Origin: Acidimicrobiaceae bacterium
GTDB lineage: Bacteria; Actinomycetota; Acidimicrobiia; Acidimicrobiales; RAAP-2
DNA length: 36,695 nucleotides
Reading direction: 5' to 3'
Assembly (NCBI GenBank): GCA_003133325.1
Contig: PKXA01000035.1
Location: 1 to 36,695 of the forward strand
Positions 28,946-33,393 of the stretch are shown here, piece by piece. A model generated the notes under the pieces. That model searched no databases and was not told the origin of the DNA. It worked only from the letters and a program-made list of their open reading frames with translations. Positions within the stretch are counted from its first letter, which is position 1. Each line of letters starts with the position of its first letter. The translations under genes and the position numbers were made by a program.

Positions 28946-29881
28946 GTGAATACCACACGAGGAGGCATCATCACCGGTTGGGGAATCGGCATACCGGACA
29001 ACGTGGTCACCAACGAGGACCTGTCGGCCCGCATGGACACCAACGACGCCTGGATCCGCGAGCGGACCGGGATCAGGGAGCGGCGGATCGGCGGGACCAC
29101 TTCACAGTGGGCCATCGAGGCCGGCTTGGCCGCCCTGGAACGGGCCGGGCGACGGCCCGACGAGATCGATGCGGTGATTCTGGCCACCACCACGCCCGAC
29201 CAGATTATTCCCGCGACCTCGGCCACCGTCCAGGATGGCATCGGAGTCCCCGGTGGTGCCTTCGACGTCAACGCCGCATGCTCGGGCTTCGTCTACGCGC
29301 TGACCGTCGCCCACGGACTATTGGCCATCGGAGCCGAGCGGCTTCTGGTCATCGGGTCGGAGACCCTCAGCCGCGTCACCGATTGGGACGATCGATCAGT
29401 GGCCATTCTGGTCGGTGACGGGGCGGGCGCGGTCGTCCTCGAGGCAGTGGACGGGCCCGGTCAGCTCCTGTCGTGGAACCTGGGCGCCGACGGCTCGCTC
29501 CGCCACCTCCTCAAGTGTGATCACGGTGGGTATCTCTACATGAACGGCAAGGAGATCTTCCGCAAGGCCGTGAGGGTGGTCATCGATTCAGCCCAGAAGG
29601 CGATCACCGATGCCGGGATGACCGCCGACGACATCGATCTGATGGTCCCTCACCAGGCCAACCTGCGGATCATCAGCGCGGCGTGCCAACGTCTCGGGAT
29701 CCCCGAGGAGAAGGCGGTAGTGGTCATCGACCGTTACGGCAACACCTCGTCGGCATCGATCCCACTGGCCCTGGCCGACGCTCTCGATGCCGGGCGCCTC
29801 AACAAAGGTGACAACGTGCTGTTGACCGGTTTCGGCGGTGGCATGACGTGGGCCAGTGCCGTTTTGCGCTGGGGCGGCTGA
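28946..29881 (+). CDS. fabH: 3-oxoacyl-ACP synthase III (KAS III)
   Basis: 311 residues, the standard KAS III length. The Cys-His-Asn triad is intact: NAACSGFVYAL (Cys about 111), VPHQANLRII (His) and YGNTSSASIPLA (Asn). Starts fatty-acid chains from acyl-CoA and malonyl-ACP in the classical pathway; no other fab gene is in the window, and pairing with an SCP2 thiolase suggests it could serve a secondary pathway. GTG 28946 lies 3 nt after the thiolase stop and has no Shine-Dalgarno, so reinitiation is likely. Confidence 0.92.
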   Translation: MNTTRGGIITGWGIGIPDNVVTNEDLSARMDTNDAWIRERTGIRERRIGGTTSQWAIEAGLAALERAGRRPDEIDAVILATTTPDQIIPATSATVQDGIGVPGGAFDVNAACSGFVYALTVAHGLLAIGAERLLVIGSETLSRVTDWDDRSVAILVGDGAGAVVLEAVDGPGQLLSWNLGADGSLRHLLKCDHGGYLYMNGKEIFRKAVRVVIDSAQKAITDAGMTADDIDLMVPHQANLRIISAACQRLGIPEEKAVVVIDRYGNTSSASIPLALADALDAGRLNKGDNVLLTGFGGGMTWASAVLRWGG

Positions 29882-29889
29882 CAACTCAG

Positions 29890-30798
29890 GTGTCCCCCGC
29901 CCCATCCTTGGTGGTGCTGGCCGCCGGCATGGCCCGTCGCTACGGCGGATGCAAGCCACTGGCTCCGGTCGGCCCGCACGGCGAAGCAGTCATCGACTTG
30001 TTGGCCAGTGATGCGATGGCGGCCGGATTCGGGGATCTGGTGCTGGTCATCCACCCCGACTCCGGTCCCGCCATCCGTTACCATGCGGAGCGGTGTTGGC
30101 CCACCTCGATCCCGGTGTCCTTCGCCGAACAACGGCTTCCTCTGGGGACCACCCATGCGGTGTTGGCCGCCCGGCCCGCCATCAGGGACAGTCAATCCTT
30201 CGCCGTCGCCAATGCCGACGATGTCTATGGCCTGTCGGCAATGGGCCTGCTGGCCGCGCAGTTGGTCACCGACACACCCGGACACATACTGGTCGGGTAC
30301 CGGCTGGCGTCCACCGTGGTCACCGATGCGCCGGTCACCCGAGGAGTGTGTGAGGTCGATCGCGCCGGTCGGCTGCTGGCGATTCACGAGCGCCGCCATG
30401 TGTCCCGACTCCATGGTGGCGTGGCCTTCACCGCCTTGGACGGTGACCTTCCCGACACACTCGCAGGCGACCTGTTGGTGTCCGTCAACCTCTGGGGGTT
30501 TCGTCACTCGATGTGGGACATCTTTGATGCCGCCATGGACGAATCGGGCCTCGATGAGGATGCGCTCATCGCCGCCGTCGAGTCGGGGTCCGATATCCCC
30601 AAGTCCGAGGTGCTCCTCCCCGAAGTTGTCGGCGCCATGATCGCATCCGGCACAGGGGAGCCGGTCCGGGTCCTCGCCACCGACTCGAGTTGCGTGGGCG
30701 TCACCCACGGCGACGATCTGCCGGTCGTCCGAGCCGAACTGGCACGGCAGGTGGCCTGGGGAACCAGGCCGGATGGCTTGTGGAACGGCATCGCCTGA
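29890..30798 (+). CDS. nucleotidyltransferase-fold protein (NTP_transferase-like)
   Basis: 302 residues. The N-terminal LVVLAAGMARRYGGCKPLAPVGPHGEAV is the nucleotide-binding loop of sugar-phosphate nucleotidyltransferases (G-x-G-x-R-x-G-x-x-K-P-L, here AAGMARRYGGCKPL). A NADDVYG motif carries the metal-binding Asp. The substrate (sugar phosphate or other) is not evident. Start at GTG 29890; the frame opens earlier but overlaps fabH. 8 nt after the fabH stop, so likely in the same transcript. Confidence 0.85.
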   Translation: MSPAPSLVVLAAGMARRYGGCKPLAPVGPHGEAVIDLLASDAMAAGFGDLVLVIHPDSGPAIRYHAERCWPTSIPVSFAEQRLPLGTTHAVLAARPAIRDSQSFAVANADDVYGLSAMGLLAAQLVTDTPGHILVGYRLASTVVTDAPVTRGVCEVDRAGRLLAIHERRHVSRLHGGVAFTALDGDLPDTLAGDLLVSVNLWGFRHSMWDIFDAAMDESGLDEDALIAAVESGSDIPKSEVLLPEVVGAMIASGTGEPVRVLATDSSCVGVTHGDDLPVVRAELARQVAWGTRPDGLWNGIA

Positions 30799-30847
30799 GC
30801 CACCGGATCGCCCCCGATCCCCCTGTAGTCTTGGATTCGGCGACTCC

Positions 30848-31774
30848 ATGACCCGAACCCGACGGCTAACTCTGAGCCTTGCCCTCAATGTCGTGTTGGT
30901 GGCCGTCCAAATTATCTACGGGGTGGCAGCCCATTCCACCGGTCTGCTGGCCGACGCCGGGCACAATGTGACCGATGTCGCCGCATTGGTCCTCTCGCTG
31001 GTAGCCGTCCGATTGGCCATCCGCCCCCGGAGCGCCGAGCATTCATTCGGCAACCACCGGGCCACCATTCTGGCTGCGTTGGCCAATGCCGCCGCCATCA
31101 CCGCGGTGACGGTTGTCATTGTGTTTGAAAGCGTTCGCCGCCTCTATCACCCCGAGCACGTCCATGCCGAGGTGGTCGTCATTGTGGCCGCAGTGGCGCT
31201 GGCCCTCAATGGACTGGCAGCGATGGTGCTCCGCGACGGATCCGGCGACCTCAATATGCGCTCGGCTCTGCTGCACATGCTCGGGGATGCCCTCGCTTCT
31301 CTGGCCGTCTTGATTTCGGCTGCGCTTCTCCTGGCCGTGCCCTCCGCCATGTGGCTCGATCCCGCCTCGGCCCTGGTGGTGGCAGCCATCATCGTGTACC
31401 AAGCCGGACTTGTCTTCCGGAGCAGTGTTTCGGTTCTGTTGGAGTCGACGCCGTCGGACGTGGACCTCTCCGATCTCACCGCGGCGATGCGCGGGGTCGA
31501 AGGCGTCGACGAGATACATGACCTTCATGTGTGGAGCCTGTCGAGCGAGATGCGGGTGCTCTCCGCCCACCTGGTACTGACCGGACACCCGACACTCGAG
31601 GAGGCCCAGGTCATCGGGGACCAGGTCAAACGCACGATCGCCGGATCGTTTTCAATCTTGCACAGCACGCTCGAACTGGAATGTGAGCGGTGCATTGATA
31701 GCGATGACGACCCGTGCCCGATGGAGTCCCCGGACTCGCTGCCTACCGGAGCAGTCACCGCTCATCATCATTGA
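30848..31774 (+). CDS. cation diffusion facilitator (CzcD-like Zn/Co/Cd exporter)
   Basis: 308 residues with six membrane segments and a C-terminal cytoplasmic domain. The CDF metal site is present as HxxxD in TM2 (LLADAGHNVTDVAALV) and HxxxD in TM5 (LLHMLGDALASLAV). The C-terminal domain (GVEGVDEIHDLHVWSLSSE) is typical, and a Cys/His-rich tail (LECERCIDSDDDPCPM ... AHHH) may bind additional metal. Antiports divalent metal for H+. ATG 30848; the TAGTCT at 30826 is a plausible -10. Last plus-strand gene before the candidate structured RNA. Confidence 0.92.
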   Translation: MTRTRRLTLSLALNVVLVAVQIIYGVAAHSTGLLADAGHNVTDVAALVLSLVAVRLAIRPRSAEHSFGNHRATILAALANAAAITAVTVVIVFESVRRLYHPEHVHAEVVVIVAAVALALNGLAAMVLRDGSGDLNMRSALLHMLGDALASLAVLISAALLLAVPSAMWLDPASALVVAAIIVYQAGLVFRSSVSVLLESTPSDVDLSDLTAAMRGVEGVDEIHDLHVWSLSSEMRVLSAHLVLTGHPTLEEAQVIGDQVKRTIAGSFSILHSTLELECERCIDSDDDPCPMESPDSLPTGAVTAHHH

Positions 31775-31784
31775 GGCCAACGTC

Positions 31785-32402
31785 TCGGGGACCACGACGG
31801 GCGAGCTCGGATCCACCGACCCGGGGAGCTTGCGCGACGCAGCCCCGAGTAACCGGACGGTCGAAACCGCCCGAGCTTCTCGGGGCCACGTACTCGGAAT
31901 GCCCTGGCTCCACTCGCGCCGGGCCGTGTCGGACAGCCCTGCATCGAGCACCGATCCGATGCGCTCTCGACGAGCACGCCGGTCCGTCCCCCTGACAACC
32001 GTGCCGGGAACCTACTGCCCCACCAACCTTCAGAAGCAGACCTTTCAGCCCGCCTCCTCGGCCGCTCGATCTGGATTCGGAGTTGGACCTTGCGGCCCTT
32101 CTCCTCACCTCGTCGTACGGCTGGCTCGCTGGTCAGACCTCTCGGCCCTCCCTCGTCGCCCGCCGCTGGGATCGGTCCTCGGAACGAGCCTTGCGACCCC
32201 TTCCTCGGCCTCCTCCGACTTCCGGTGGAGCTTCGGTTTCCCGAACTACGGACACAGTGCGCCGGCCACGAGCCGAGGTCAAGAGGCTGGCGCGAAATCC
32301 CTACCTTTTCCGCCGGATTCCTGGTCCTATCCCCAGGAATCGGTGAGATGTCCACCGGTCATCCCCAACCCGGGAGATCGACATTCGGAGCTGGCCTCTC
32401 CG
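31785..32402 (-). ncRNA. candidate large structured non-coding RNA, ~600 nt
   Basis: No credible protein frame. The minus strand contains about a dozen perfect or near-perfect local hairpins: 32386-32402 (5 bp), 32341-32357 (5 bp), 32316-32341 (9 bp), 32232-32245 (loop GAAA), 32181-32204 (loop GCAA), 32135-32148 (loop GAGA), 32079-32104 (loop GCAA, AA/AA internal loop), 32036-32053 (loop UGAAAG), 31961-31977 (6 bp), 31941-31962 (6 bp, shares two nt with the preceding stem), 31922-31938 (6 bp), and 31855-31872 (7 bp, loop UUCG) enclosed by a 7-bp CCCCGAG/CTCGGGG stem 31843-31885. GNRA and UUCG loops read correctly only on this strand. RNase P and tmRNA consensus blocks are absent. Boundaries are approximate. 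Confidence 0.62.
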
Positions 32403-32403
32403 A

Positions 32404-33393
32404 TCAGCTCCCGACCGGTTGACCGAAGCGGTCGACACCGCACAGTCTTCTCCACGCTCTAGCCACACGTCCGGTCGGGATGACCCCCGAGGTGACCAGA
32501 GCACCCAACACCGGCCGGACGGCTTGATGACGCATGTCTCTCTGATGCCGACTCTTGGTCACCGCCCGCCAGGTTGCCTTCGCAGGCAGACCGACCGTCT
32601 CGAACACCCCGGGGTGGACCATCCAGTCGAACATGGTGCGGATGATGAAGGGAAGGAGGTGTCTGACGGTGAACCTGTCCACCCAGGAGGCTTCCTCCCA
32701 CAGTTCCGGAAGGACCATCCGGGCGTAGGCCAGATGTCTGGCTTCCTCCTGACGGTGATACCGGTTGACGCTCTTCAGGAAGGGGTCGGTGTCAGGGTGT
32801 TCGACCAACTTCTTTTGGAGAAGGTCGGGTATCTCTTCGCCGGCCAGGACCAACGCGCACAATGTCGCCGGCCGGTGGATCAGGGCCCGGGTGACGTGGC
32901 GGAACAGGAAGTTGGCAACGCCATGATCAGCCGGGCTTTTTGCCGTCGGAGCCAACTGCTCGACAAGCCGGAGGAAGAGCCGGGAGTGCCGGGTCTCCTC
33001 ACCGATTTCGTGAAGCATGTAGACGATGCGGGGATCGCCAATGGCCGAAGAGTGTGCCACCTGCTCGGCGAATCCGGACATCAGAATCGCCTCGAACCGG
33101 ATACCGGCCACTGTGACCGAGGCGATCTCCTCCCGCGACAACCTCACCTTTTGTTCGTCGGTCAAATGCAGGTCGAGGTCGGCGGTCACCGATAGTTCGG
33201 TGGCAAAGACCTGGCCCGACCCAAGGGCGCCGACCACATCGGTATCTGGCTCGATCACCTTGCGGAGCGACGCGGTGTTGAGCCGACCCACCCGACGGGT
33301 GGTGGCGACACCCGGGTCACCCTCGAGGGCGGTGTCATGGTCGGCATCGGTGCGTGCATCTTCATTGATCGGGCGCATGTCGGTTGTGGTCAT
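32404..33393 (-). CDS. AurF-like diiron N-oxygenase family protein
   Basis: 329 residues. Diiron ligand motifs typical of the AurF (p-aminobenzoate N-oxygenase) family: ASVTVAGIRFEAIL, YMLHEIGEETRHSRLF (E-x-x-x-x-RH), LVLAGEEIPDLLQ and NRYHRQEEARHLAYAR (H-x-x-E-E-x-R-H). Members oxidise amines or act as alkane/aldehyde-type oxygenases; the substrate here is unknown. ATG 33393 has AAGGAG 6 nt upstream and shares ATGA with the tetR stop, so it is the regulated partner of that repressor. The last coding base is 1-2 nt from the first hairpin of the candidate RNA. Confidence 0.85.
   Translation of the reverse strand: MTTTDMRPINEDARTDADHDTALEGDPGVATTRRVGRLNTASLRKVIEPDTDVVGALGSGQVFATELSVTADLDLHLTDEQKVRLSREEIASVTVAGIRFEAILMSGFAEQVAHSSAIGDPRIVYMLHEIGEETRHSRLFLRLVEQLAPTAKSPADHGVANFLFRHVTRALIHRPATLCALVLAGEEIPDLLQKKLVEHPDTDPFLKSVNRYHRQEEARHLAYARMVLPELWEEASWVDRFTVRHLLPFIIRTMFDWMVHPGVFETVGLPAKATWRAVTKSRHQRDMRHQAVRPVLGALVTSGVIPTGRVARAWRRLCGVDRFGQPVGS

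Follow-up and report, generated by a model that had tools for sequence, protein, structure and literature searches.

The described RNAs that come nearest to the one reported here are Ms1 and CoRP of actinobacteria, 6S RNA, and the large ornate RNAs GOLLD, ROOL and OLE. CoRP of Corynebacterium glutamicum is a 516-nt RNA that is neither 6S nor Ms1 and was missed by homology searches; the authors of the RIP-seq report propose that every bacterial species has one abundant RNA that associates with RNA polymerase, an RNA that is not always 6S or Ms1, and state that such RNAs may escape current searches (PMC11077062). In the Ms1 study, Acidimicrobiales is not in the table of orders and the string "acidimicrobi" is not in the main text (PMC9130861). 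A source on the ornate RNAs describes GOLLD and ROOL as coded by phages or prophages, often near tRNA islands, and GOLLD as conserved in its 3′ part and less so in its 5′ part; Rfam contains GOLLD, ROOL and OLE (PMC12286853).

The locus considered here lies in a stretch of 36,695 nucleotides from an Acidimicrobiaceae bacterium (GCA_003133325.1, contig PKXA01000035.1), referred to below as the window. Comparison of genome sequences supports a structured RNA gene on its minus strand, the expression of which is inferred; comparison establishes, at the level of predicted features, how the RNA folds, that it is conserved, and that it has a promoter pattern and an array of upstream boxes. The RNA matches no catalogued family and looks like an undescribed core component of the cell. 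A search of the literature for an RNA of such kind in Acidimicrobiia found nothing.

A structured RNA on the minus strand

The original prediction was of a structured non-coding RNA of 620 bp, rich in tetraloop-capped hairpins that made sense on the minus strand only. The minus strand of 31785-32402 contains eight hairpins with a stem of at least 5 bp and a GNRA or UUCG/UACG cap, compared with a mean of 0.32 in dinucleotide shuffles, none of 1000 of which reached eight. The plus strand of the same interval contains one (p 0.135), and the hairpins of the original prediction are confirmed. The seven GNRA loops are GGGA at 32365 and 32333, GAAA at 32240, GCAA at 32194, GAGA at 32143, GCAA at 32093 and GAAA at 32046, and a UUCG loop is located at 31865; the five GNRA loops and the UUCG loop of the prediction are all among them. 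When 117 tiles of the window were ranked by capped hairpins, the tile over this interval came first. Folding of 31775-32402 gave z −3.67 on the minus strand (0/20 shuffles equally good) and z −2.12 on the plus strand (1/20).

The predicted extent has to be reduced. The first 155 nt in the direction of the RNA (32402-32248) consist of the promoter and upstream boxes, and the two GGGA hairpins are situated upstream of the promoter, outside the RNA. The structured RNA is assigned to 31830-32247 of the minus strand, ~415 nt, with the 5′ end inferred from the promoter and the 3′ end from the terminal hairpin. Folding of the trimmed RNA (32247-31830) gave z −5.58, with none of 100 shuffles equally good. 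Relatives have the conserved promoter pattern and an AGUUCGG-like RNA start. The interior of the RNA is free of indels against two relatives of ~92-94% identity, the sole nearby indel being at 31827.

Promoter and upstream boxes

A sigma-70-type promoter is predicted at 32254-32282 of the minus strand, with TTGACC at 32282-32277, a spacer of 17 nt and CACTGT at 32259-32254, and its position sets the expected RNA start at ~32247. Two statements of the original prediction are affected. The RNA was said to begin directly after the stop of the aurF-like gene, but the promoter sits between that gene and the RNA. The alternative of an own promoter within the aurF-like gene is retained as to the promoter pattern and abandoned as to its place. 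The −10 element of the window (CACTGT) is weak; a generic promoter and terminator scan of the window called no promoter and one plus-strand terminator-like site. Across homologues, the pattern TTGACN-N16..19-[TC]ANNNT was found 120-560 nt upstream of the conserved core in 72 of 127 hits versus 4 of 129 downstream controls. The count started from 130 hits (100 from alignment A4 and 30 from A5, five weak A5 rows being excluded), of which 127 had at least 500 nt upstream and 129 had enough downstream sequence.

Upstream of the promoter, the region 32306-32367 of the minus strand contains two exact TGGGGA boxes (32367-32362 and 32335-32330), 32 bp apart, together with the variants TGGACA (32354-32349) and CGGAAAA (32312-32306). 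Counts of TGGGGA over 54 upstream stretches are 129 in the orientation of transcription and 4 in the reverse; shuffles gave 5.9 (maximum 14 in 100 runs). These 54 are the rows, out of 107, with TTGA[CT] 180-345 nt upstream of the core; they include near relatives and a chance antisense row (L125:2466), and not every one is a true promoter. Box spacings, counted with TGGGGA plus five near variants, peak at 21, 32, 42, 11 and 22 bp; the next most common, 13, 19 and 20 bp, suit helical phasing less well. Exact boxes peak at −32, −53/−52, −73/−74 and −85 from the first base of TTGAC. The fixed distances from the promoter and the single orientation are the reasons for reading the boxes as putative sites for an activator on one face of the helix, an inference made without binding data.

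A triple-box pattern gave 21 matches in ten whole genomes, 14 of them at the promoter of the RNA (8 of the 10 genomes), and the reversed pattern gave no match in the same genomes. The remaining seven matches fall in three short arrays of repeats with a spacing of ~23 bp, which contain TGGGGA and are located off the contig of the RNA, at G000:C55:265-338 (in the window's own assembly, G000), G004:C37:84687-84783 and G010:C12:4918-4992. The ten genomes were hand-picked, mostly for known boxes at the RNA, and the result speaks for rarity of the pattern elsewhere in them, not for its frequency. The window itself is poor in this respect, with only its two exact boxes, and does not meet the triple pattern. 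Some lower-GC genera have boxes that resemble TGTGGATAA, which we take to be the usual DnaA box. An oriC/DnaA cluster was rejected from the sequence beside dnaA, which in eight genomes contains 0-5 exact TGGGGA per 1500 nt; no formal test was made, and degenerate boxes were not covered.

Anatomy of the RNA

The conserved 3′ core (31831-31950, minus strand) is the basis of the covariance models R1 and R2. It is predicted to end in a two-level hairpin (31834-31893), which consists of a lower stem ACGUGGCCCCGAG/CUCGGGGCUGCGU, a purine-A mismatch, a short AGC/GUU helix and an upper stem looped by UUCG. Of 130 core hits, 112 have the CCCCGAG strand of the lower stem unchanged. The short helix is of AGC/GUU type among the hits, and the upper stem is variable, often closed by UUCG. 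A further hairpin, GCAGGGCUGUCCGACACGGCCCGGC (31918-31942, minus strand), precedes the terminal one on its 5′ side. In the matching model helices, each of the 10 pairs shows double changes across order and class, the sequence being free to vary while the pairing is kept.

The sequence on the 5′ side of the core is less constant. The segment 31978-32021 (minus strand), with GGUUCCCGGCAC at 32012-32001 and GUCAGGGGGACGG, is partly kept in six near relatives. It is preceded by two tetraloop hairpins at 32032-32115 of the same strand (GCAA at 32093, GAAA at 32046), which were delimited in the alignment of near relatives. These extra arms (32115-32032) are present in the window, G004 and G001 and absent in G002, G003, G024 and G036, and are, as judged from this alignment, a lineage-specific gain or loss. 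Farther 5′ on the minus strand are a hairpin capped by GAGA, in which 2x2 purine internal loops recur (32117-32166), and a GCAA-capped hairpin (32181-32204). When the window is compared with six near relatives, three of nine pairs of the latter hairpin show a double change. The length of the 5′ domain is variable. Its consensus folds in five groups have z −4.6 to −13.9 against 60 column shuffles and are better than those of the groups' own antisense in all five; the column shuffles do not preserve dinucleotides, and the f45 and g9 alignments contain sequence upstream of the RNA. The structured sequence ahead of the 3′ core occupies 153-345 alignment columns in the group folds.

Two further candidate features were discarded. 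A closing helix between the 5′ end and the 3′ core, predicted in the window, is inconsistent across groups, and the motif GG(Y)UUCCC(U/G)GG fails as a hallmark of the family, being present in only 31 of 107 hits.

Homologues and covariation

The window's own genome is counted in all genome tallies given here for the DNA, R1 and R2 searches. The DNA search gave a match in 26 of 61 genomes; two matches are full length at 92-94%, and many lie mainly over 31833-31939. Nineteen loci were aligned with MAFFT without fitting to the structure (alignment A2), which yielded a consensus of 29 pairs and the model R1. Eight pairs of A2 have changes on both sides, a number reached in none of 500 shuffles, and 97.1% of cells pair versus 35.9-46.3% with the partners slid. 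R1, a covariance model of the 3′ part, matched 146 of the 172 family genomes, with 21 of 21 genera represented; at the level of the order it matched 81 of 397. Alignment A3 contains 107 aligned hits from 100 loci, two of its rows being chance. In it 24 of 29 pairs show double changes, with a covariation score of 0.470 versus 0.210 shuffled and at most 0.098 slid; A3 is fitted to the structure and biased toward it.

R2 is a wider, refitted model, and the core alignment made after A3 dropped several of its near-duplicate loci. R2 matched 107 of the 296 class genomes, of which 71 fall outside the order, and 10 of 296 genomes of the phylum, three of them outside the class (6.2e-5, and a pair from one genus at E 3.6e-4 and 7.0e-4). 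The class loci (A5) again show double changes in 24 of 29 pairs, with a covariation score of 0.515. A5 has 35 rows, including five weak ones (E 0.001-0.04), all antisense to a real hit, and shares with A3 the bias of an alignment fitted to the structure. Covariation had been named as a check on the original prediction; it is strong across homologues, also on the alignment not fitted to the structure, and the homologues keep the stems as a structured RNA of the minus strand would. Genomes left unmatched by the models number 26 of 172 in the family, 316 of 397 in the order and 189 of 296 in the class. The strict filters and the short core-only model miss weak matches, and true absence from the unmatched genomes is not excluded.

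A pattern scan of named contigs gave 26 matches: 12 Acidimicrobiaceae, 3 Acidimicrobiales, 8 "Actinomycetes bacterium", 2 "Actinobacteria bacterium" and 1 "bacterium". The names indicate, by inference, that the carrier class is Acidimicrobiia. Two loci outside the class, L198 and L199 (f104), have a 3′ hairpin of the same type with TTGACC-N17-CAGAGT upstream; given these two carriers, the RNA may predate the class.

Fourteen of the 107 matching class genomes (the window's genome aside) have two matches, some on different contigs, and in the nine multi-copy class loci that were read the copies are 0.3-2.3 kb apart. Several copies of the RNA core per contig at these distances were seen at L190-L196, L208, L209, L142-L145 and L099, with three in L194. 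Multiple copies would fit dosage or paralogous variants. A REP-like repeated palindrome was rejected, as genomes with a match mostly have one. The window's assembly has a second match at G000:C12:1391-1495, on the contig G000:C12:1-2995 (L148). All 2995 bases of this contig are 100% identical to a contig of G102, which belongs to a different genus; the contig most likely entered the assembly as a binning contaminant and accounts for the second match.

Genomic setting

The six window proteins tested with Pfam are CDF, NTP transferase, FabH, AurF, TetR and CMD. Over 100 loci, the nearest downstream open frame belongs to a convergent CDF exporter 22 times, is NTP-transferase-like 13 times and is SRAP-like 9 times, the SRAP name being our assignment from the sequence of the gene. 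In the window, a block at 28946-31774 comprises FabH-like, MobA-like NTP transferase and CDF exporter genes, members of which are convergent with the RNA and downstream of it in many loci. A plus-strand group of 23 open frames was taken as antisense, which is confirmed only for the two of the window, where they overlap the CDF and NTP-transferase genes. The upstream genes vary among genera while the RNA stays, and, since the conserved downstream genes are convergent, the RNA is not the leader of one of them. Three pattern scans of IMG/VR and searches of phage and plasmid collections gave no match to the RNA, and an origin from a phage or plasmid was rejected on this basis.

Search for known RNA families

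None of 4227 Rfam families reached its gathering score anywhere in the window; this was the covariance-model check named with the original prediction, and GOLLD, ROOL, OLE, HEARO and group I/II introns were among the models without a match. HEARO and the group I and II introns are, we assume, in Rfam like the others. At E ≤5 the region 31600-32700 gave only F6, Pab160 and sR41, at chance level and all on the plus strand, and at E ≤2 the loci of 14 diverse relatives gave nothing sensible, with no match to Ms1 or 6S. The reported lack of RNase P and tmRNA signatures is confirmed, as neither model matches in the window and the genome has both genes elsewhere (G000:C60:18894-19287 and G000:C57:52125-52475, respectively). 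The 6S model (RF00013) had no match in the window and none in 21 genomes, with 5 of 14 control genomes positive. The Ms1 model gave no match in 40 class genomes, but none in 14 control genomes either; because no control was positive, this result alone proves no absence.

Interpretation and comparison with known RNAs

The observations are best explained by a stand-alone gene for a trans-acting non-coding RNA of ~415 nt, found class-wide, with a promoter of its own and a regulator acting at the upstream boxes. We consider this reading likely, with transcription, activator binding and action in trans all inferred; that the RNA is independently transcribed and trans-acting is the most likely case, in the absence of expression data. 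RNA polymerase with the primary sigma factor would start at ~32247 from the TTGAC-N17 promoter, and a regulator bound to the TGGGGA-type boxes, with spacings near two, three and four helical turns, would set the RNA level. The transcript would fold into the variable 5′ domain of tetraloop-capped hairpins and the conserved 3′ domain, and would end just past the nearly invariant GC-rich hairpin, which may protect or terminate the 3′ end and probably anchors a protein. The presence of the RNA in 146 of 172 family genomes and across the class has the usual meaning of a core function.

Several other readings have to be weighed. Palindromes arising by chance in GC-rich DNA are regarded as refuted, as is a short protein gene: the count of capped hairpins, unmatched in 1000 shuffles, and the covariation exclude the palindromes. 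As for a protein, open frames of 195 aa (minus strand) and 259 aa (plus strand) cross the region, and the minus frame is free of stops in both near relatives, a reservation that remains. The changes relative to these two relatives are nevertheless distributed 20/26/21 over codon positions, without the pattern of a coding sequence, as the original prediction of a non-coding RNA would have it. The plus frame is interrupted by 2 and 3 stops in the two relatives, a count partly due to the 1-nt indel at 31827. A cis element belonging to a neighbouring gene (3′ UTR, terminator or leader) would agree with the location of the RNA, which follows the aurF-like gene on that gene's strand, and with the terminator-like last hairpin; the RNA's own promoter pattern, the exchange of upstream genes between genera, the convergent downstream genes and the length of structured sequence ahead of the core make this very improbable. 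A sponge or decoy, in which GGA-rich tetraloop arms titrate a CsrA- or Hfq-like regulator, or a DnaA-like box titration site with the RNA secondary, is unlikely without being negligible. The number of arms differs between lineages, as a sponge might, but conservation is highest in the single 3′ hairpin, not in the arms. The likeness of the boxes to TGTGGATAA is set against their fixed promoter distances and orientation, which are those expected of activator sites, and against the low TGGGGA counts beside dnaA.

Two rivals are themselves known RNAs. Like the stand-alone RNA gene preferred here, Ms1 (RF02566) is a stand-alone structured sRNA gene of the same phylum with a two-level terminal hairpin, and its size class is similar (301 nt at the locus L210, probably from a mycobacterial genome, versus ~415 nt here). 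A 12-nt identity, GGTTCCCGGCAC, is shared by the window (32001-32012, minus strand) and Ms1 (L210:2416-2427), at a length of at least 12 that 5 of 500 shuffles reach. The 12-mer is located at nt 236 of 418 in the window RNA versus nt 72 of 301 in Ms1, it is missing from other groups of the family, and it is no more than a lead. The Rfam Ms1 model matches the HAD-linked Ms1 at L210 as a positive control, yet it finds nothing in the window region up to E 5 or in the 14 diverse relatives up to E 2, and R2 has no match at L210 up to E 5. The HAD hydrolase that neighbours Ms1 is absent among the six window proteins tested, and the HAD locus of the window's own genome (L213) gave only a chance-level R2 match (E 2.2). 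A very distant Ms1 orthologue that has lost both synteny and sequence likeness is thus improbable. The same grade is given to a large ornate RNA acting as an RNA-only assembly of the GOLLD, ROOL or OLE type. The original prediction had pointed to these RNAs, and the general kind stands: they are likewise large and ornate, of unknown or partly known function, the present RNA is rich in tetraloops, and its conserved 3′ and less conserved 5′ parts are as in GOLLD. It differs from them in lacking an Rfam match, in being absent from the phage, plasmid and IMG/VR searches whereas GOLLD and ROOL are coded by phages or prophages in the account cited above, and in often adjoining the same chromosomal genes.

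For the trans-acting RNA gene that is preferred, RNA polymerase may be suggested as the partner, with a role such as 6S, Ms1 and CoRP have elsewhere. This is a guess by analogy, tentative and more doubtful than not, without binding data. It is drawn from the failure to find 6S and Ms1 in the relatives and from the proposal of one such RNA per species (PMC11077062), and the argument for polymerase binding rests only on the absence of other such RNAs. More speculative still is the full picture, in which an undescribed housekeeping RNA of all Acidimicrobiia would be the abundant polymerase-associated RNA of the class, a third actinobacterial type beside Ms1 and CoRP, with a dedicated activator on a helically phased TGGGGA array that is rare elsewhere in the genome; binding data are lacking here too.

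The carriers, from soil and water, make up a large group of actinobacteria that have been little studied. For actinobacteria in which neither 6S nor Ms1 has been found, the RNA offers a concrete target for asking whether RNA polymerase is controlled by an RNA, and by which one; its promoter offers a route to an unknown transcription factor through the phased operator. The likeness to 6S RNA is confined to the proposed role, and the conserved rod with a central bubble of the 6S type is not seen in the group folds. With CoRP the RNA has in common that it is an actinobacterial RNA of several hundred nucleotides outside 6S and Ms1; CoRP is flanked by tRNA genes (PMC11077062), whereas the RNA of the window is flanked by protein genes.
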